Assembly: GCF_003626595.1 (NCBI RefSeq)
Contig: NZ_RBAK01000003.1
Location: forward strand, 372,001-436,000
Direction of reading: 5' to 3'
Origin: Micromonospora endolithica
Lineage (GTDB): Bacteria > Actinomycetota > Actinomycetes > Mycobacteriales > Micromonosporaceae
Length of the DNA: 64,000 bases
Made by a program: the position numbers and the translations under genes. This document shows positions 30,495 to 39,113 of the stretch, in pieces. Every line of letters starts with the position of its first letter. Position 1 is the stretch's first letter. The notes below the pieces were generated by a model. That model did no database searches and was not told the DNA's origin. It saw nothing but the letters and a program-made list of their open reading frames with translations.

Positions 30495-31748
30495 ATGCCC
30501 ATGAACCGCCTGCTGACCCTCGGGGTCGGCGCGCTGACGGCGGTCGCGCTGAGCGTTCCCCTGGCCGCGGCCCCCGCCTCGGCCACCTCGTCGCACCACC
30601 GCTCGGGTGGCAGCCTCGTGCTGGTCGGCGGTGCGCTCGCCGACGACAACGCCGCCATCTACGGCGACATCGTCCGACTCGCCGGTGGCGCCGGGAAGGC
30701 CCGCATCGGCATCTTCACCGCCGGGGCGCCGACCCCGGCCGAGGACCCGGACGCGGACACCCCGGACTGCAACAACTCGGTCTGCAACGGCGACTACTAC
30801 GCCAACCTGTTCAAGACCTACGGCGTCGCCGACGCGCAGTGGATCCCGATCGACGTCGACCACCCGGAGAAGGCCGACGACCCGGCGGTGGTGGCCCAGA
30901 TCAACTCGATGACCGGCTTCTTCTTCGGCGGGGGTGACCAGTACCGGTACGTCACCACGATGACCCGGGGCACCGCACAGCGCGACTCGGCCGCGCTGGC
31001 CGCGGTCCGGCGCAAGCTGCGCACCGGCGCGGTCGTCGCCGGCACCAGCGCCGGCGCGCAGATCATGGCCGGCCGCGACATGATCACCGGCGGTTCGGTC
31101 GACCCCGGCCTGCGGGACGGGTCGAAGCCCGGCTACTTCGACGACTCGACCGTCCTCGGGTACCTGCCCAAGGGCGGGTTCGGCTTCTTCCGCGACGGCC
31201 TGCTGGACACCCACTTCTCCCGGCGCGGCCGGGAGGCCCGCTCCATCCGGCTCGCCACCGACACCCGCAACAAGCGGGTGTTCGGTCTGGACGAGAACAC
31301 CGCGCTGGAGGTGACCCACGTCGGCTCGCGGCACCAGAAGCTGCGGGTGATCGGCGAGCGTGGGGTGACCGTGCTGGACCTGCGGCGGGCGCGGACCACC
31401 GCCGGGCCCGTCTGGGGCGTGGAGGGCGTGCGGTGGACCCGGCTGACCGAGGGCGACCGGTACCGGTCGGACCGCTGGCAGCCGATCTTCGCTGCCGGTA
31501 AGAAGCGGGTCGTCGGGGCGCCGGGCTGCGCGGCCACGCCGACCGAGGACGTCTTCTGGAACTACGGACTGGTCACCAACGCCGAGGCGCTGATCGCCAA
31601 CGCCGGCTGCGCGTCGGTCGTCGACGTGTCCTACGAGGACGACCCGCGGTGGCAGGCGACGCTGACCCGGGGACGGGACTTCGCCGCGTACCGGGCCGGG
31701 GAGTCGACCTCGTTCACCGGCGTGGTGATCGGCATCGGCGCCGCCTGA
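30495..31748 (+). CDS. Secreted cyanophycinase-like S51 peptidase (copy 1)
   Basis: A 417-residue protein with a standard signal peptide (cut near PASATSS at 28-34). The mature part is a cyanophycinase/S51 serine peptidase: LVLVGGALADDN, FFFGGGDQYRYV, the nucleophile S185 in VVAGTSAGAQIM, and LDTHFSRRGREARSIRLA. Cyanophycinases cut the Asp-Arg polymer cyanophycin to beta-Asp-Arg; extracellular versions let bacteria feed on it. The start ATG follows GAGGAGCAGTC. A second S51-type gene is 0.4 kb downstream and an amino-acid importer with an M20 peptidase follows, which may be a pathway. Confidence 0.9.
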   Translation: MPMNRLLTLGVGALTAVALSVPLAAAPASATSSHHRSGGSLVLVGGALADDNAAIYGDIVRLAGGAGKARIGIFTAGAPTPAEDPDADTPDCNNSVCNGDYYANLFKTYGVADAQWIPIDVDHPEKADDPAVVAQINSMTGFFFGGGDQYRYVTTMTRGTAQRDSAALAAVRRKLRTGAVVAGTSAGAQIMAGRDMITGGSVDPGLRDGSKPGYFDDSTVLGYLPKGGFGFFRDGLLDTHFSRRGREARSIRLATDTRNKRVFGLDENTALEVTHVGSRHQKLRVIGERGVTVLDLRRARTTAGPVWGVEGVRWTRLTEGDRYRSDRWQPIFAAGKKRVVGAPGCAATPTEDVFWNYGLVTNAEALIANAGCASVVDVSYEDDPRWQATLTRGRDFAAYRAGESTSFTGVVIGIGAA

Positions 31749-31749
31749 C

Positions 31750-31808
31750 GCGTAAGGAAGGGCCCCTTGTTAACGCATAGTGTTGTACAAGGGGCCCTTC
31801 CTAACACT
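31750..31808. repeat. Palindromic intergenic repeat, family A copy 3
   Basis: The best-preserved copy: CGTAAGGAAGGGCCCCTTG, a short spacer with TTAACGCATAGTGTTG, then TACAAGGGGCCCTTCCTAA. It lies directly between the cyanophycinase stop and the stop (31801-31803, inside the repeat) of a phosphotransferase fragment on the other strand. Confidence 0.9.
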
Positions 31809-31968
31809 CGCGCAGGATCGCGGCCAACGTGTGGCGGGCGGTCGCGGACATGACCGGGTTCGTGTCCACGTAGTACGCCAGGCACCCGATCGCCTGCGCC
31901 AGCGCCCAGCCGCGCCCGCGCGCCCACGTCGCGTCGTCGACGTCGACCTGGTCGTCGTGCATGCGCAT
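31801..31968 (-). pseudogene. C-terminal remnant of an aminoglycoside phosphotransferase-like protein
   Basis: A 55-codon frame from ATG 31968 to TAG in the repeat. It reads MRMHDDQVDVDDATWARGRG, then WALAQAIGCLAYYVDTNPVM, which matches the extreme C-terminus of APH/phosphotransferase family proteins (TWARGRGWAL...TNP). The upstream frame shows no kinase motifs, so about 80 per cent of the gene is gone. It is probably a relic, with the palindromic repeat at its 3' end; a tiny expressed protein cannot be excluded. Confidence 0.7.
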
Positions 31969-32060
31969 CGGTCGATCGTGGCAGTCGGGTGGTGTGCCGG
32001 GCGAGCGAATTCCCCGGGTCGGGCGGGACCGTCGGGCACCGAGCGGCTCGTCATCAAGAT

Positions 32061-32074
32061 GTAACAGGGGTTAC
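32061..32074. promoter_or_regulatory. GTAAC/GTTAC inverted repeat before second cyanophycinase-like gene
   Basis: GTAAC-AGGG-GTTAC, centred 74 bp upstream of ATG 32142. The same half-sites form palindromes before the ABC importer at 34829-34872. It may be an operator of the RpiR regulator encoded at 33861. Confidence 0.55.
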
Positions 32075-32141
32075 GTATTGAGCATGGAACTTAATGGATG
32101 TAACTTCTGTTTCATCGATCCGTGGCCCCTCGGAGGTGCCC

Positions 32142-33584
32142 ATGTTCCCTGTCCGCAACCCCCTGCGTACCCGTCTCGCGGTGCTCGTCGCCGCGAGTCT
32201 CGTCGCCACCGTGGCGCCGGTCGGGGTGACCGCCGCGCACGCCCAGGTCATCCGGGACCGGCAGGGCAGCTCGACCGACGTGAGCCGGGCGAGCTGGTCC
32301 GGCCCGGCGTACACGATGAACGGCTCGGGCGGCGTCGTGTCCGCCACCATGACGCAGGCCATCAACGCGATCCGCGGCGGCAGCGGCACGATCGACGTGG
32401 CGGTTGTCGCCGCGTCCGACGGCGGCACCCCCGAGTGCGACGACATCATCGGCCTGGCGAACGTCAACTCGTGCACCACGCTGACCCTGACCAGCGCCAA
32501 CGACGGCAACAACAGCCAGGTGAACACCGACATCCGCAACGCGGAGTTCGTCTACTTCGCCGGCGGCAACCAGTGCAACTACGCCGCCTGGAAGGGCACC
32601 GCGCTGGAGGCGTCCGTCGAGTCGGTGGTGGCCAAGGGTGGCGGGGTCGGCGGCGGCAGTGCCGGGCACCACATCAACAGCGACATCGTGTACGACGCCT
32701 GCGCGGCCAGCGCCACCTCGGCGATCGCGCTGGACAACCCGTACGACCGCTCGATGACCTTCACCACCGGCATGTTCCGCTGGGCGAACTACGCCAACAC
32801 GATCAACGACTCGCACTTCCAGGAGCGCGACCGGATGGGCCGCTCGATGGCGTTCGTCGCGCGGGCCGTCAAGGACGGTCGCACCAGCGGTGGCGCGGCC
32901 TGGGGCGTCGGGGTCAACGAGGGTGCCTCGCTGTTCATCAACAAGTCCGGGCTGGCCACGCTGAGCGGCTCGAACGCGTACGTGGTCCTCGGCGACCACC
33001 AGCCCGAGGTGGCCGTCTCCGGTCAGCCGCTGACGTACTCGAACTTCAAGATCTGGAAGCTCGCCAACGGCCAGACCTACAACTTCGCCAACCGGCCCAC
33101 CTGCGGCTACTACCTGAAGAGCGTGACCAACGGGGTGCCGAGCAGCAACCTCTACAGCGGTACCCCGGTCACCGACTGCTCGACCAACCCGCCACCGCCC
33201 CCGCCCGGTGGTGGCTCGTCGTACGCCGAGGTCGAGCCGAACGACAGCCGCAACGCCGCCAACGACGTCACCGGCAACAGCTACCCGCTGACCGTCACCG
33301 GCGACATGAAGAGCACCAGCGACCGGGACTACTTCAAGGTCAGTCTCAACAGTGGACAGACGCTGACCGTGAACTGCGCCGTCCCCACCGCCTACGACGC
33401 CGACCTCTACCTGCTGAACTCGAACGGGAGCACGGCCACCCGCTCGGTCAACGACGGGGCGGGCACCGACGAGTCGGCCTCGCTGACGAGGACGTCGTCC
33501 GGATCGGCCACCTACTACGTCGAGCTGGAGGCGTACTCCGGCTCCGGCACGGCCGACTACTCCTGCACCGTCGCCAAGTCCTGA
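32142..33584 (+). CDS. Secreted cyanophycinase-like S51 peptidase with C-terminal PPC domain (copy 2)
   Basis: A 480-residue exported protein. Signal peptide to about AAHAQ (residues 35-40). The S51-like domain spans about 60-345: FVYFAGGNQCNYAAWKG and the nucleophile S173 in GGGVGGGSAGHH, in place of the usual GTSAGA. A proline hinge (PPPPPPGGG, about 349-357) leads to a pre-peptidase C-terminal (PPC) beta domain with EVEPNDSRNAAND and DRDYFKVSL. PPC domains help secreted peptidases fold or bind substrate. ATG 32142 has CGGAGG upstream. Substrate may be cyanophycin or a related peptide; the altered nucleophile elbow needs testing. Confidence 0.82.
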   Translation: MFPVRNPLRTRLAVLVAASLVATVAPVGVTAAHAQVIRDRQGSSTDVSRASWSGPAYTMNGSGGVVSATMTQAINAIRGGSGTIDVAVVAASDGGTPECDDIIGLANVNSCTTLTLTSANDGNNSQVNTDIRNAEFVYFAGGNQCNYAAWKGTALEASVESVVAKGGGVGGGSAGHHINSDIVYDACAASATSAIALDNPYDRSMTFTTGMFRWANYANTINDSHFQERDRMGRSMAFVARAVKDGRTSGGAAWGVGVNEGASLFINKSGLATLSGSNAYVVLGDHQPEVAVSGQPLTYSNFKIWKLANGQTYNFANRPTCGYYLKSVTNGVPSSNLYSGTPVTDCSTNPPPPPPGGGSSYAEVEPNDSRNAANDVTGNSYPLTVTGDMKSTSDRDYFKVSLNSGQTLTVNCAVPTAYDADLYLLNSNGSTATRSVNDGAGTDESASLTRTSSGSATYYVELEAYSGSGTADYSCTVAKS

Positions 33585-33698
33585 TTCCACCCGAGCCGGA
33601 AGGCGCGTCCTCCTCATCCCCCCGGGAGGACGCGTCTTCCGCGCGTCCGCTGTCGCTTCCTGCCGCGCCCGGTGTCGGCACCCCCACACCCTCCCACG

Positions 33699-33775
33699 CC
33701 CCCTTTGCTCTGCTTCAACCCACGCACCGGATCTCGGCCGTTTCCGTTGCGCCAGTTGAAGCAGTGCAAAGGGGG
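33699..33775. repeat. Intergenic inverted repeat (21-bp arms)
   Basis: Arms 33699-33719 and 33755-33775 (left arm CCCCCTTTGCTCTGCTTCAA plus C) pair at 20 of 21 positions around a 35-base loop. It lies 115 bp after the S51/PPC stop and 86 bp before the RpiR gene, so it may end the upstream transcript. Its sequence differs from repeat family A. Confidence 0.8.
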
Positions 33776-33860
33776 GCGGGCAAGGGGGTGCGGGGCGGTT
33801 GGTGGGCGACCGCTTCGATGTCCGGGCCGGGTGGCGCCGGTCGGCCGCTACGCTCAGCGC

Positions 33861-34811
33861 GTGTCGACCTCTGATCTTGCCGGCGAGCCGGGCACGGGTG
33901 CGGGCGCCGGTCGGGCCCACTCCGGCTCCGATGACGCCGTCCCCTCCGCCGATTCGCCCGGGGTGGGTGTGGCGGCGCTGATCCGCCAGCGGCTGGGCGA
34001 GTGCAGCCCGGCCGAGCGCCGGGTCGCCCGCGCGCTGCTGGCCTCGTACCCGGCCGCCGGTCTGGGCACGGTCGCCTCGCTGGCCGAGCGGGCCGAGGTG
34101 AGTGCCCCGACCGTGCTGCGGTTCCTCAGCCGGCTCGGCTTCGGCGGCTACCCGGAGTTCCAGCGCGCGCTGCGCGACGAACTGGCCGAGCGGGAGACCT
34201 CGCCGCTGACCGCGTACCGGGCGGCGGAGCGGACCGGCGCGCCTCCGGCGGGGGCGCTGCCCCGGGCGGCGGCGACCCTGCCGGACGCGGTGGCCGGGAC
34301 GTTGGCCGAGCTGCCCCAGGGCGAGCTGGACGCGGCGGTCCGTCTCTTCGCCGACCAGCAGCTACGGGTGACCGCGGCGGGCGGCCGGTTCTCCGGGCTG
34401 CTCGCGCACTACCTGGTGCTGCACCTGATGCAGGTACGCGGGGGAAGCCGAGTGTTGCCGTCCACCCCGGTGGAGCGCACCGACATGCTCGTCGACGTGG
34501 GTCGGCGGGACCTCTTCGCCCTGTTCGACTTCCGCCGGTACGAGGAGCCCACGCTGGCCCTGGCCCGGGAGGTCACCGCACGGGGCGCCCGGGTGGTCCT
34601 GTTCACCGACCGGTGGTTGTCCCCGGTGGCCGGGCTCGCCGAGGTGGTGCTGCCCAGCCGGGTCGAGTCGCCCTCGCCGTACGACAGTTTCGTTCCGACG
34701 TTGGCCCTGGTGGAGACGCTGGTGGCGGCGTTGATCGACCGGCTCGGGCCGGCCGCCGGCAAGCGCCTGAAGGCGATGGAGCAGGCCCAGCAGACGTACG
34801 GGGGAAGCTGA
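33861..34811 (+). CDS. RpiR/MurR family transcriptional regulator (HTH + SIS)
   Basis: A 316-residue regulator. After a low-complexity N-terminus (about 1-35) comes the RpiR helix-turn-helix (CSPAERRVARALLASYPAAG, SLAERAEVSAPTVLRFLSRL, GFGGYPEFQRAL), then a SIS sugar-phosphate-type ligand domain (AAGGRFSGLLAHYL..., DFRRYEEPTLALAREV, GARVVLFTDRWLSPVA). RpiR proteins normally sense phosphosugars, but they also control amino-acid and N-acyl-sugar importers. GTG 33861 starts the family-like part. It lies directly before the importer operon and the GTTAC palindromes, its likely sites. Confidence 0.9.
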   Translation: MSTSDLAGEPGTGAGAGRAHSGSDDAVPSADSPGVGVAALIRQRLGECSPAERRVARALLASYPAAGLGTVASLAERAEVSAPTVLRFLSRLGFGGYPEFQRALRDELAERETSPLTAYRAAERTGAPPAGALPRAAATLPDAVAGTLAELPQGELDAAVRLFADQQLRVTAAGGRFSGLLAHYLVLHLMQVRGGSRVLPSTPVERTDMLVDVGRRDLFALFDFRRYEEPTLALAREVTARGARVVLFTDRWLSPVAGLAEVVLPSRVESPSPYDSFVPTLALVETLVAALIDRLGPAAGKRLKAMEQAQQTYGGS

Positions 34812-34828
34812 GCGACACCCGATGTGGC

Positions 34829-34872
34829 GTTACAGAAAACTGTAACCCCATCGAGATCGTAACGTGCGTTAC
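34829..34872. promoter_or_regulatory. Two palindromic operators before the ABC importer
   Basis: GTTACAGAAAACTGTAAC (34829-34846, 7-bp arms) and GTAACGTGCGTTAC (34859-34872, 6-bp arms) lie 41 to 85 bp upstream of ATG 34914. They share the half-site GTTACAG/GTAAC, so one dimeric regulator, most simply the adjacent RpiR protein, may bind both. Confidence 0.75.
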
Positions 34873-34913
34873 AGTCCGGGGGCTGGTTCGACTGGCACCC
34901 GGAAGGACACCCC

Positions 34914-35861
34914 ATGCGCATCCGTCACCTTGCCCTGGCCACCACGGCCACGGCCCTCCTCGCCGTCACCGCCGGCTGCGGCGGCGACTCCTCCTCCACC
35001 GCCGCGACCGGCGACGAGGTCAAGACCGTCACCGTCACCATCGCGGGTGTCGGTGAGGTCACCACCGACGCCAACCTGGCCCGGAAGGTCCCCGGCGACG
35101 TCCGGGACCGCGGCACCCTGACCGTGGCGACCAACGCCCCCTACGAGCCCTTCATCGACTTCGCCGAGGAGGGGCGCACCGACGCGTTCAAGGGCCTGGA
35201 CCACGACCTGTTCATGGCCGCCTCCGCGCGGCTCGGCATCAAGGCCACCTTCACCCAGCAGCCGTTCGACGGACTGGTCCCGGGGCTGCAGGCCGCCAAG
35301 TACGACGCCATCGCCGGCGGCATCACCGACAAGAAGGAACGCCAGCAGGTCGCCACCTTCGTCGACTACTCCGCCTCCGGCACCGGCTTCCTGGTCAAGA
35401 CCGGCAACCCGCTCGCCGTGAAGACCGTCGCCGACCTGTGCGGGCGCAAGGTGGCCGTGCAGAAGGCGAGCAACCAGGCGAAGAACCTGGCCGACTACAG
35501 CAAGTCCGACTGTGCCGGCCGGGCGATCGAGGTCAAGGAGTACCCGGAGAACCCGCAGGCGGTGCAGGCGCTGATCGCCGGCAACGTCGACGTGGTCGCC
35601 GCCACCAAGGTCAACCTGGTGGACATCGCACCCGGTCTCGCCGGCAAGGCCGACCTGGTCGAGGACCCGTCCGCCCCGAACGGCTGGCTGGCCAGCCCCA
35701 ACGGCTTCGGCTTCCTCAAGGCCCAGAAGGAACTGGCCCAGGCGTACCAGGCCGCGGTGCAGTCGCTGATCGACGACGGCACCTACACCAAGATCCTCGC
35801 CCAGTGGAAGCAGGAGCCGATCGCGATCAAGCAGGCCACCATCGACCAGGCCATCGACTGA
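34914..35861 (+). CDS. Amino-acid-type ABC importer substrate-binding lipoprotein
   Basis: A 315-residue exported lipoprotein with signal peptide and lipobox VTAGC (C22). It is a family 3 solute-binding protein: LTVATNAPYEPFIDF, DHDLFMAASARLGIKATF, FDGLVPGLQAAKYDAIAGG and a late KAQKELAQAYQAAV. These proteins bind amino acids, opines or small peptides at the outer membrane face of the cytoplasmic membrane. An about 40-residue spacer precedes the fold. A stable hairpin after its stop separates it from the permease gene and may give it a higher transcript level. Confidence 0.92.
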   Translation: MRIRHLALATTATALLAVTAGCGGDSSSTAATGDEVKTVTVTIAGVGEVTTDANLARKVPGDVRDRGTLTVATNAPYEPFIDFAEEGRTDAFKGLDHDLFMAASARLGIKATFTQQPFDGLVPGLQAAKYDAIAGGITDKKERQQVATFVDYSASGTGFLVKTGNPLAVKTVADLCGRKVAVQKASNQAKNLADYSKSDCAGRAIEVKEYPENPQAVQALIAGNVDVVAATKVNLVDIAPGLAGKADLVEDPSAPNGWLASPNGFGFLKAQKELAQAYQAAVQSLIDDGTYTKILAQWKQEPIAIKQATIDQAID

Positions 35862-35887
35862 CCTCGGCGGAGGCGACTCCCTGAACC

Positions 35888-35950
35888 GCGGTCGCCGGGC
35901 GCCCTTTCGACACCGTGAGGGCGGGCCCGGAAGGCGCGCCCGGCGACCGC
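35888..35950 (+). promoter_or_regulatory. Intra-operon stem-loop after the binding-protein gene
   Basis: Perfect 14-bp arms GCGGTCGCCGGGCG (35888-35901) and complement (35937-35950). It lies between binding-protein and permease genes of one operon, a common site for partial termination or mRNA protection that raises binding-protein output. Confidence 0.65.
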
Positions 35951-35960
35951 CGCACCACAC

Positions 35961-36009
35961 TTCGTTCGCGACTGCGGGGCTCCGCTGCGCCGCACTCCTC
36001 GCGCTCACC
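35961..36009 (-). repeat. Inverted single copy of the 59-bp repeat (family B)
   Basis: The reverse complement of 35961-36009 matches the first 49 bp of the tandem unit at 37694, with one difference (GCGGCG-C-AGCGG against GCGGCG-A-AGCGG). It lies 24 bp before the permease gene. Confidence 0.9.
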
Positions 36010-36033
36010 CGGCCCCGCCGCTGGAGGCACTCA

Positions 36034-36888
36034 ATGACGAGCGACACCGAGACGGTACGGGTGGTCCCCGTACGGCACTACGGGCGCTGGCTGACCGCGA
36101 TCCTCGTGGTCGGCGTGGCGGCCCTCTTCCTCCGGGCGCTGCTGGACAGCCCCAACCTCGAACCCGCCACCATCGGCGAGTACCTGTTCAAGGACTACAT
36201 CCTCGACGGCGTGGTCACCACGCTCTGGTTGACCCTGCTGGCGATGGTGCTCGGTACCGTCGGTGGCGTCCTGCTCGCCGTCATGCGGCTGTCGGCCAAC
36301 CCCGTGCTGCGCGGCGTCTCCTGGGCCTTCATCTGGATCTTCCGGGGCACCCCGCTGCTGGTGCAGATCATCTTCTTCGGCTTCCTCGGCGCGCTGTTCC
36401 CCCGGATCACGTTCAGCCTGCCGTTCACCGACCTGGTCCTGTTCGACAAGCCGACCAGCGTCGTGGTCACCGGCACCGTCGCCGCCGTGCTCGCCCTGTC
36501 GCTCAACGAGATGGCGTACGCCGCCGAGGTGATCCGGGGCGGTATCCTCGCCGTCGACGCGGGGCAGACCGAGGCCGCCGCAGCTCTCGGCATGAGCCCC
36601 GCGCTGACCCTGCGTCGGGTGGTCCTGCCCCAGGCGATGCGCGTCATCATCCCGCCGATGGGCAACGAGACCATCACCATGCTCAAGTCCACCGCACTGG
36701 TGTCGATCATTGCCGGCCGTGACCTGATGACCGCCGTGCAGACCGTCTACCAGGGCAACTACAAGGTGATCCCGCTGCTCGTCGTGGCGGCGATCTGGTA
36801 CCTGGCGCTGGTCAGCCTGCTGTCCGCCGGCCAGTGGGCGATCGAGCGCCGGTTCGGCCGCGGTTTCGCCCGGGGAGGAGTCCGATGA
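36034..36888 (+). CDS. Amino acid ABC transporter permease
   Basis: A 284-residue HisM/GlnP-type permease. Helices begin near residues 22, 62, 92 and later. The conserved region [18 protein letters not shown] and the EAA loop region [19 protein letters not shown] then [17 protein letters not shown] confirm the polar amino acid family. As the only permease gene it probably acts as a homodimer. ATG 36034 follows GGAGGCACTCA. It overlaps the ATPase gene by 4 bp. Confidence 0.94.
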
Positions 36889-37697
36889 CCACGCAAGCCA
36901 CCACCGGCGGAGCCGAGGCGCCGGCTGCCGTCCAGACACGGCCGATGGTGCGGGCCGAGGGCGTCACCAAGAAGTTCGGACCGGTCGAGGTGCTCAAGGG
37001 CATCGACATGACCGTCGCCCCGGGCGAGGTCGCCTGCCTGCTCGGCCCCTCCGGCTCGGGCAAGTCCACCTTCCTGCGCTGCATCAACCACCTGGAACGC
37101 ATCGACGGCGGGCAGCTCTGGGTCGACGGCGACCTGGTCGGCTACCGCCGCCAGGGTGACAAGCTCTACGAGCTGAAGGCCCGCGAGGTGGCCCGCCGCC
37201 GCCGGGACATCGGCATGGTCTTCCAACGGTTCAACCTCTTCCCGCACCTCACCGCGCTCGGCAACGTCATCGAGGCACCGGTACGCGTTCTCGGTACCCC
37301 CCGCGACCGCGCCCGCGCCGAGGCGTCGGCCCTGCTGGAACGGGTGGGACTGGCCGAGAAGGCGAACAGCTACCCGGGACAGCTCTCCGGCGGCCAGCAG
37401 CAACGGGTCGCGATCGCCCGCGCGCTGGCCATGCACCCGAAGCTGATGCTCTTCGACGAGCCGACCTCGGCACTCGACCCGGAACTCGTCGGCGACGTGC
37501 TCGACGTGATGAAGAGCCTCGCCGCCGACGGCATGACGATGGTCGTGGTCACCCACGAGATGGGGTTCGCCCGCGAGGTCGCCGACTCGGTCGCCTTCCT
37601 CGACGGCGGTGTGGTGGTCGAGTCCGGCCCACCGGGCGAGGTGCTCGGCAACCCGACGCACGCCCGCACCCGCGCCTTCCTGGACAAGGTCCTGTGA
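36885..37697 (+). CDS. Amino acid ABC transporter ATPase
   Basis: A 270-residue ATPase of the polar amino acid (GlnQ/HisP) group. Walker [12 protein letters not shown]-loop [11 protein letters not shown], signature [15 protein letters not shown], Walker [16 protein letters not shown] and H-loop [15 protein letters not shown] are all intact. A 20-residue hydrophilic extension precedes the usual start. GGGGAGGAG at 36872-36880 supports ATG 36885. The TGA stop is within the first tandem repeat unit, so repeat growth started at the end of this gene. Confidence 0.95.
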
Positions 37698-37928
37698 GCG
37701 CGAGGAGTGCGGCGAAGCGGAGCCCCGCAGTCGCGAACGAAAGGGCAGCTCGGTGAGCGCGAGGAGTGCGGCGAAGCGGAGCCCCGCAGTCGCGAACGAA
37801 AGGGCAGCTCGGTGAGCGCGAGGAGTGCGGCGAAGCGGAGCCCCGCAGTCGCGAACGAAAGGGCAGCTCGGTGAGCGCGAAGGAGTGCGGCGAAGCGCAG
37901 CCCCGCAGTCGCGAACGACAGCAGCGCG
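37694..37928 (+). repeat. Tandem 59-bp repeat, four copies (family B)
   Basis: Units begin at 37694, 37753, 37812 and 37871, each starting GTGAGCGCGAGGAGTGCGGC and ending AAAGGGCAGCTCG in the first three. The fourth has one inserted A, one A-to-C style change in the middle and an altered end that runs into the M20 start codon (37929). Each unit carries GTGAGC and GAGGAGTG, so it resembles a translation start. An inverted copy lies at 35961-36009. Confidence 0.95.
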
Positions 37929-39113
37929 GTGAGTGCGGTCGGCGGCGCCGAGCTGCTCGCGGCGGCCGGGGGCCGGCTCGCCGCGTACCACGAGCGCCTC
38001 GCGCGGCTGGTCGGCGTCGACTCCGGGTCCGGACACGTGGACGGCCTGCGGCAGGTCGCCGACCTGGTGCAGACCTGGTGCCTGGAGGCCGGCATGGCGG
38101 TGGAACGCGAACCGGTCGCCGACCCGTCCGGCCGGCCGCTCGGCGACGTGCTAATCGGTCGGCGGCGGGGCCGGGGTCGACGGCGCATCCTGCTCGCCGG
38201 TCACCTGGACACCGTCTTCCCGCCCGGCACGGCCGCCGCCCGACCCTTCCGGGTGCAGGACGGCCGGGCGTACGGCCCGGGGGTCAGCGACGACAAGGGC
38301 GGCGTGCTCGCCGGCCTGGCCGCCGTCGAGGTCCTGGTCGCGCTCGACCGCGAGGAGTACGGCGAGCTGGTGCTGGTCTGCACCCCGGACGAGGAGATCG
38401 GGTCGACGGGCAGCCGCCCGTTGCTGCGTACCCTCGGGTCCGTGGCCGACGTGGCACTGTGCCTGGAGTGCGCCCGGGACAACGGTGACCTGGTGTCGGC
38501 CCGCAAAGGCGTCGCGGACCTGGAGGTGACGCTGCGCGGCCGGGCCGCGCACGCGGGCATCGAGCCGGAACGCGGGGCGAACGCGCTGCTCGCCGCGGCC
38601 CGGCTGACCGTCGCCCTGGACGCGCTCAACGGCCGGTGGCCCGGCGTCACCGTGAACGTCGGCCACCTCGCCTCCGGCGACCGGCCGAACGTCGTCCCGG
38701 ACCGGGCCCGCATGCTGGTGGACCTGCGCGCCTGGCACACCCGGGAGTACGAGGCGGCGCTCGCCGAGATCCGCCGGCTGGTCGCCGAGCCGCAGGTCTC
38801 CGGGGTACGCGCCGAGGTGGCCGTGCACGCGCCCACCCCGCCGTGGGAGCCGGGACCGGCCGGGCAGCGGCTCACCGAGCTGGCCGCCAAGGTCGGTGCC
38901 GGGTTGGGCGTACCCGTGTCGCACACCGCGACCGGCGGCTGCGCCGACGCGAACCTGCTCGCCGAGGCCGGCGCGGCGGTGCTCGACGGGCTCGGCCCGG
39001 TCGGCGGAGCCGACCACAGTCCGTCGGAGTGGCTGGACCTGGACTCCGTCGTCCCGCGGACAGCGCTGCTCGCCGGCCTGATCGACGAGGTCAGCCGGGC
39101 GGACCGGGACTGA
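37929..39113 (+). CDS. M20 family metallopeptidase
   Basis: A 394-residue zinc peptidase of the M20/ArgE/DapE/CPG2 family. Metal and catalytic residues are in place: H92 and D94 in GHLDTVFP, D121-D122 in GVSDDKGG, E155-E156 in PDEEIGS, and the last ligand in GADHSPSEW. The middle lid domain begins at LEVTLRGRAAHAGIEPERGANA. It has no signal peptide, so it acts in the cytoplasm, probably on dipeptides or acylated amino acids brought in by the importer just upstream. GTG 37929 directly follows the tandem repeats, whose GAGGAG or GCAGCG sequence would serve as a weak ribosome site. Confidence 0.93.
   Translation: MSAVGGAELLAAAGGRLAAYHERLARLVGVDSGSGHVDGLRQVADLVQTWCLEAGMAVEREPVADPSGRPLGDVLIGRRRGRGRRRILLAGHLDTVFPPGTAAARPFRVQDGRAYGPGVSDDKGGVLAGLAAVEVLVALDREEYGELVLVCTPDEEIGSTGSRPLLRTLGSVADVALCLECARDNGDLVSARKGVADLEVTLRGRAAHAGIEPERGANALLAAARLTVALDALNGRWPGVTVNVGHLASGDRPNVVPDRARMLVDLRAWHTREYEAALAEIRRLVAEPQVSGVRAEVAVHAPTPPWEPGPAGQRLTELAAKVGAGLGVPVSHTATGGCADANLLAEAGAAVLDGLGPVGGADHSPSEWLDLDSVVPRTALLAGLIDEVSRADRD

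Follow-up and report, generated by a model that had tools for sequence, protein, structure and literature searches.

Could seven neighbouring genes of Micromonospora endolithica serve to scavenge cyanophycin, a microbial nitrogen-storage polymer, from outside the cell? The question is raised by positions 30495-39113 of the window, the whole stretch of 64,000 nucleotides of M. endolithica DNA that was analysed. Here two genes of the S51 peptidase family (S51a and S51b), an RpiR-type regulator, the binding protein, permease and ATPase of an ATP-binding cassette (ABC) importer, and an M20 peptidase follow one another on the + strand. The original prediction had listed these genes from the DNA letters and had read them as a possible cyanophycin-scavenging unit. 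All seven are present with Pfam matches, as follows:

30495..31748, + strand: S51a, a secreted-looking, cyanophycinase-like serine peptidase of 417 amino acids (Pfam S51 31 bits, cut-off 23.9; NCBIfam and PDB matches)
32094..33584, probable start 32142, + strand: S51b, a secreted-looking protein of predicted cyanophycinase fold with a C-terminal PPC domain (Pfam, profile search and structural model)
33672..34811, probable start GTG 33861, + strand: RpiR-type regulator with HTH_6 and SIS domains (Pfam, homologue lengths)
34914..35861, + strand: family-3 solute-binding protein (Pfam SBP_bac_3; alignment with AncQR)
36034..36888, + strand: ABC importer permease (Pfam BPD_transp_1; NCBIfam)
36834..37697, + strand: ABC importer ATPase (Pfam ABC_tran; NCBIfam)
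37929..39113, + strand: M20 peptidase resembling carboxypeptidase G2 (CPG2), putative beta-Asp-Arg dipeptidase (Pfam Peptidase_M20 and M20_dimer; structure and residue comparisons)

The seven genes constitute a real and well-delimited cassette, most likely for cyanophycin scavenging. We consider it likely that they act as one such system under common control, with the M20 enzyme as the final dipeptidase. The predicted unit is supported by a shared distribution, by seven-gene sets that are reshuffled across genera, by pocket residues, by a palindrome bound to the locus and by the lack of IaaA and of over-cut-off IadA in the 19 carrier genomes tested. In the proposed pathway, the two secreted S51 enzymes would cut cyanophycin outside the cell to beta-Asp-Arg, as their fold and conserved pocket residues suggest. 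The ABC importer would then take up the dipeptide, a step to which gene linkage and a replaced ligand-binding Asp point, the latter presumably a contact for the ligand's amino group. In the cytosol, the M20 enzyme would split beta-Asp-Arg into Asp and Arg, which is consistent with its linkage, with the missing IaaA and IadA and with the loss of the Arg of the glutamate pocket. The RpiR protein, finally, may control the S51b and importer promoters through GTAAC-N4-GTTAC.

The seven genes are one inherited unit. Among 150 genomes of the same family (orthologue cut-offs E 1e-60 for M20, E 1e-10 for S51b, and E 2e-96 or better for S51a), M20 orthologues occur in 18, S51b orthologues in 17 (weakest match 1.4e-145) and orthologue-grade S51a matches in 17, and it is the identical set of 17 genomes that carries S51a, S51b and M20 each time. 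The eighteenth M20 match is a C-terminal fragment in G163 (L076). Twenty genomes fall outside the S51a count: 19 of them match at 34-41 percent identity (E 1e-18 to 7e-11), and in G020 just two short fragments match (G020:C1:4478159-4478430). These fragments and the M20 fragment in G163 look like decayed remnants of lost cassettes. The locus was compared in 19 carriers, namely the window and 18 others (16 of the 17, plus G024 and G022); all seven genes are present in 19/19, with M20 cut by a contig end in G022. When the five window genes that flank the locus were used as queries, any of them stood beside the locus in only two of the 18 other carriers (L060 and L062).

An S51b-alignment scan of named genomes yielded 71 loci in Micromonospora, Catellatospora, Dactylosporangium, Hamadaea, Streptomyces, Kitasatospora, Streptacidiphilus and Microtetraspora, 61 of which contain all seven genes. 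Merging both sets and removing duplicates left 76 distinct loci; 67 of them are complete and show ten arrangements. The scan is blind to loci without S51b and overstates the retention of this gene. Throughout the 67 complete loci, the binding-protein, permease, ATPase and M20 genes are adjacent in that order, and S51a, S51b and RpiR shift around them. Of the nine incomplete loci, five (L105, L117, L127, L142 and L146) run into the limit of the sequence retrieved or of the contig before the missing genes would be reached.

Peptidase and transport genes with no functional tie might also have come together by chance, since S51, M20 and ABC genes are each common. A class-level sample of 394 genomes gave strong M20 matches in nine cases (E 3e-131 or better) and weaker ones at 26 places (E 1e-60 to 1e-78). 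Thirteen of the weaker places were examined, and these paralogous M20 genes stand without the cassette S51a, S51b, RpiR, binding-protein and permease genes nearby in 13/13; S51a was found in 0/12 of the genomes concerned. Against chance stand the identical 17-genome distribution, the reshuffled yet complete cassettes and the locus-bound palindrome described below. Chance clustering is hardly credible and was rejected on the co-occurrence in the same 17/150 genomes and the ten arrangements of the 67/76 complete loci.

With cyanophycin scavenging as the favoured reading, the S51 enzymes would supply the extracellular step. S51a scores 109.8 bits and S51b 50.4 bits with the NCBIfam cyanophycinase model TIGR02069; both lie under its curated cut-off of 126.6, so the two proteins are named cyanophycinase-like and not certified equivalogs. 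A sequence search of the PDB with S51a returned cyanophycinases only. S51b scores 19.5 bits with Pfam S51, below the cut-off (23.9), and has a PPC domain in addition. It gave no match in a single-sequence search of the PDB, and a profile search reached cyanophycinase 7uqv at E 2.6e-5. Its predicted structure (pLDDT 79.5) has cyanophycinases as best matches (Foldseek E 2.5e-11) and aligns with 3en0 at Z 24.0 and rmsd 2.7 over 248 residues; the next matches are the actinobacterial S51-like peptidase 6nqc (Z 19.2) and PepE 1fy2 (Z 15.0). According to this model, S51b has the cyanophycinase fold, and its C-terminal domain resembles collagen-binding domains in a structure search. The secreted nature of these proteins was judged by eye from signal-like N-termini, and that of the binding protein from a lipobox-like Cys22, with no predictor used.

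The residues critical in CphB are given in PMC3235067 as Ser132, Gln101, Asp172, Gln173, Arg178, Arg180 and Arg183, with Thr replacing Gln173 in CphE. Among 88 S51a and 87 S51b sequences, counts that include some genomes twice, the GxSAG serine motif occurs in 87/88 and 87/87, and the D-x-H motif with the catalytic His in 87/88 and 86/87, respectively. Equivalents of Gln101, Asp172, Arg178, Arg180 and Arg183 are all present in both window proteins. The three Arg are found in 86/87 S51b relatives; S51a has the CphE-type Thr, with Arg180 and Arg183 equivalents in 87/88. The pocket Arg motif is missing from both other S51 proteins of the M. endolithica genome. The cassette enzymes thus resemble CphE, the extracellular cyanophycinase of Pseudomonas alcaligenes as described in PMC3235067, in being secreted-looking S51 proteins with GxSAG and with the Gln, Asp-Thr-His and Arg pocket residues, and S51a shares with it the Thr before the catalytic His. 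Unlike CphE, most S51a relatives lack an Arg178 equivalent, and S51b is a more remote relative, in most cases with a PPC domain. In one carrier genome (G170, L077), S51a occurs a second time in diverged form (about 48 percent), elsewhere in the genome and with the rest of the cassette not nearby.

The substrate of the S51 enzymes might instead be Asp-X peptides or an aspartate-rich polymer other than cyanophycin, on which the cassette would feed. The sub-cut-off TIGR02069 scores would allow such a function, as would a weak match to the dipeptidase PepE in 11 of 28 S51a members and the presence of the poly(aspartic acid) hydrolase 7ljh among the structural neighbours of the M20 protein, at rank 16. 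This alternative is quite improbable, given that the NCBIfam cyanophycinase model matches every one of the 28 S51a and 46 S51b members scanned and that two or three of the pocket Arg are conserved.

The M20 enzyme is the proposed endpoint of cyanophycin breakdown in the cassette. The protein matches Pfam Peptidase_M20 and M20_dimer, with only a weak M28 match besides, and is nearest to CPG2 in sequence and fold (Foldseek E 5.4e-39, ~30 percent identity). Like CPG2, it has the M20 fold and the metal and catalytic residues: His92, Asp121, Glu155, Glu156, Glu180 and His363 are kept in 76 distinct sequences, with one gap at His363, and align with CPG2 His112, Asp141, Glu175, Glu176, Glu200 and His385, whose roles and numbering, anchored on His112, we take as given. 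Unlike CPG2, the locus proteins have Cys, Thr or Ala at the position of Arg324 in 76/76 (the 13 paralogues have Arg in 13/13), the window residue being Thr303, which pairs with Arg324 in 4/4 MAFFT alignments. Neither is there a Lys opposite CPG2 Lys208 in the window protein, where Asp187, Leu188 or a gap is found depending on the alignment. Lys208 and Arg324 presumably hold the substrate glutamate in CPG2, a role for which a literature search gave no confirmation. These alignments indicate firmly that the glutamate-type pocket of CPG2 is not kept, and the loss of the Arg324 equivalent makes glutamate release by the locus enzyme unlikely. Acidic residues are fixed instead: Asp187 in 74/76 locus proteins (Ala in L144, Ser in L182), Asp197 in 74/76 and Asp362 in 74/76, with other residues at 187, 197 and 362 in the paralogues. 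We infer that the pocket may have been remade for Arg.

In a tree of the M20 proteins, the 76 locus proteins form a distinct clade (support 0.756) apart from the 13 paralogues; the Micromonosporaceae group within it has weak support (0.485). We lean slightly towards seeing in the M20 protein the first member of an additional class of cyanophycin-dipeptide hydrolases, without relation to IadA, IaaA or CphZ. Such a class would have arisen in actinomycetes from a CPG2-like ancestor by remaking of the glutamate pocket (loss of Arg324, fixation of the acidic Asp187, Asp197 and Asp362), would release Arg and not Glu, and would travel with a dedicated importer and two secreted cyanophycinases. The window M20 protein has no match to IaaA (PF01112) in Pfam, and IadA TIGR01975 is absent among its 25 best of 60 NCBIfam matches. 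A kinship with CphZ, which the original prediction had brought up, was not upheld and is rejected: by its Pfam matches the window protein is an M20 peptidase, and CphZ belongs to a different protein family, being annotated in PMC10206079 as M14 or succinylglutamate desuccinylase/aspartoacylase.

Pfam and NCBIfam place the importer with the binding-protein-dependent, polar-amino-acid type. In this protein family the ligand carboxylate is bound by an Arg, which is kept here as Arg143 of the binding protein. The Asp that in AncQR presumably holds the free alpha-amino group of the ligand is replaced by Thr231 in 27/27 aligned binding proteins; short of proof, this would fit a ligand with an acylated amino group, as in beta-Asp-Arg. 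Six Streptomyces loci (L116, L125, L126, L135, L147 and L150) have a second binding-protein gene, 36-39 percent identical, next to the cassette, and a second RpiR gene is found in some loci as well.

Common control of the cassette had been suggested by palindromes noted upstream of both the second S51 gene and the importer. Three elements (no strand) are concerned:

32061..32074: palindrome GTAAC-N4-GTTAC before S51b, putative operator (pattern searches)
34829..34846: half-sites in everted orientation, GTTAC-N8-GTAAC, upstream of the importer genes (sequence)
34859..34872: second GTAAC-N4-GTTAC palindrome, upstream of the importer genes, likewise a putative operator (pattern searches)

The suggestion is supported by the distribution of these sites. 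GTAACN{2,8}GTTAC has only two matches in the 64 kb (0.02 expected), GTAACAGGGGTTAC at 32061-32074 and GTAACGTGCGTTAC at 34859-34872. GTAACN4GTTAC has four sites in the 7-Mb genome, two of them at the locus, and a control pattern has none. In 98 loci, duplicates included, 49/49 sites fall between 350 bases upstream of a cassette gene start and 90 bases into the gene, all with a four-base spacer; after deduplication, 36/36 exact sites are at cassette gene starts, in 27 of 81 distinct loci. The longer form TGTAACN4GTTACA, with at most one mismatch, was found 96 times in 99 stretches (1.95 Mb), always at the start of a cassette gene; at two mismatches, 14 sites lie elsewhere. The palindrome belongs to the cassette unit. 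A regulator whose HTH_6 and SIS domains both score over the Pfam cut-off is encoded in the same unit, and this RpiR protein is the natural candidate binder of the conserved sites. A wide regulon was considered and rejected: the other two genomic sites, one inside a peptide-binding-protein-like open reading frame (ORF) and one just before a desaturase-like ORF (labels by eye), give no pointer to Arg/Asp metabolism. A better palindrome was sought in intergenic regions outside Micromonosporaceae, which returned mostly GC-rich repeats, together with half-sites GTTAC-N6-GTAAC between divergent S51b and binding-protein genes in 13/45 loci.

Other enzymes of cyanophycin metabolism were sought in the 19 carrier genomes. 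IaaA (PF01112) was found in 0/19 and IadA (TIGR01975) over its cut-off in 0/19. Cyanophycin synthetase exceeds its cut-off in 3/19 (G083, G120 and G173), and G129 has two adjacent partial matches. The prediction had noted no synthetase in the window, and none over the curated cut-off occurs anywhere in the M. endolithica genome. In G083 and G120 the synthetase adjoins a separate S51 gene, 36-38 percent identical, which suggests that storage and scavenging are run by separate systems in these two genomes.

Several observations weigh against the favoured reading. Besides the sub-cut-off TIGR02069 scores of both window S51 proteins, an equivalent of CphB Arg178 could be read in only 28/88 S51a sequences (the window S51a has it), and the catalytic Glu, E267 in the window S51a, is Pro in Catellatospora-type members and variable in S51b, as judged by eye. 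CPG2 Lys208 pairs with Asp187 in two of seven alignments and with Leu188 in one, and is unpaired in four, a count that excludes the alignment to permuted CPG2; a clean Lys208-to-Asp187 swap, shown only by the 6xj5 and profile alignments and not by the five others, was withdrawn as firm. The exact palindrome is present in 19/26 Micromonosporaceae loci but in 8/55 others, and the longer form (at most one mismatch) is missing from 47/99 stretches, two of them without a full cassette. IadA-like matches of 21-25 bits, far under the cut-off of 331, occur in 16/19 carriers, and the finding of PF04952 matches in 0/19 carriers is a weak test for CphZ, the model having 76 positions. Most importantly, of seven strong class-level M20 loci not seen before, in which the binding protein, permease and ATPase adjoin in 7/7 and RpiR in 6/7, S51a is found in 5/7 genomes and S51b nearby in only 2/7. 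All seven genes stand together in 1/7 (L185), and L186 is cut by a contig end. G490 and G544 lack S51a genome-wide (E 1e-3) and S51b nearby, S51b having been searched only near the locus; their importer-M20 loci speak most strongly against tying the cassette strictly to cyanophycin.

These last loci favour a broader role, in which the importer, RpiR and M20 proteins would serve N-acylated or isopeptide-linked amino acids at large (e.g., other beta-aspartyl dipeptides) and the S51 enzymes would be one of several sources. RpiR, importer and M20 persist without S51a in two of the seven class-level genomes. The binding protein also differs strongly between families, with 35-45 percent identity in the Streptomycetaceae-type loci aligned, and the second binding-protein gene of some Streptomyces loci points the same way. 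Both S51 genes are nevertheless present in 67/76 distinct loci, a share biased upward by the finding of the named set via S51b, and the same palindrome stands before S51b and the importer. We regard the broader role as unlikely and retain cyanophycin as the preferred substrate source.

Reportedly, the CphZ/AotO enzyme of the Pseudomonas aot operon is of metallopeptidase type, stands beside an amino-acid ABC importer and serves imported beta-Asp-Arg, an organization that the cassette resembles. The cassette enzyme differs from CphZ in being M20, the latter being of M14/AstE-AspA type according to PMC10206079. The same source describes scavenging clusters in which cyanophycinase is accompanied by transporters and by IadA or IaaA; for cyanophycin users among Firmicutes and Bacteroidota, it regards the dipeptidases as still undiscovered. 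It also reports IadA and/or IaaA in all 35 CphA1-bearing Actinomycetota genomes counted, unlike the carriers described here, which have neither IaaA nor over-cut-off IadA. Like the cyanophycin utilization locus (Ben Hania and others, cited in PMC10206079), the cassette combines cyanophycinase-like enzymes, a transporter and a putative dipeptidase; that locus occurs in genomes without a synthetase, whereas among the carriers M. endolithica has none over cut-off and 3/19 have one. Where that locus has IadA or IaaA, the cassette has an M20 enzyme; it also differs in its pair of dissimilar S51 genes, its RpiR regulator and its ABC importer. It may be a new form of this known locus with a candidate new dipeptidase family. 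A literature search, judged by titles and abstract openings and with many subscription journals outside its reach, found no earlier report of the cassette or of an M20 cyanophycin dipeptidase, and passages of PMC12661447, PMC4415585, PMC6920838, PMC11078827 and PMC8880816 do not describe the cassette.

The cassette names a concrete candidate for a beta-Asp-Arg dipeptidase of a different protein family in actinomycetes. If the assignment is correct, it would explain how carriers without IaaA or IadA complete cyanophycin breakdown, and cyanophycin would be a shared nitrogen source for many soil actinomycetes and not just a private store. It would also put enzymes on offer for converting cyanophycin to Asp and Arg.

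Two gene starts probably lie later than in the longest ORFs. S51b would begin at ATG 32142 behind GGAGGT, and two relatives (L062 and L078) have no start codon at the place aligned with the upstream ATG. The RpiR gene would begin at GTG 33861, its homologues being 281-355 amino acids long. Two further features lie between the genes (no strand):

31755..31805: strong hairpin downstream of the S51a stop codon, either a dispersed repeat or a terminator-like element (fold energy, similar sequences in the window)
37694..37937: 59-bp tandem repeat of 4.2 copies between the ATPase and M20 genes, outside the conserved unit

The stretch 31745-31820 folds into a very stable hairpin built on AAGGGCCCCTTGTTAAC (-46.6 kcal/mol, z -9.2). 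Similar sequences occur at ~14.8, 25.2 and 46.2 kb of the window, and the hairpin may therefore be a dispersed repeat element. The copies of the tandem repeat are 96 percent alike, and the ATPase and M20 genes abut in relatives such as L060 and L061. Finally, an inverted repeat, TTTGCTCTGCTTCAA ... TTGAAGCAGTGCAAAGG, was noticed by eye at 33690-33790, between S51b and RpiR.

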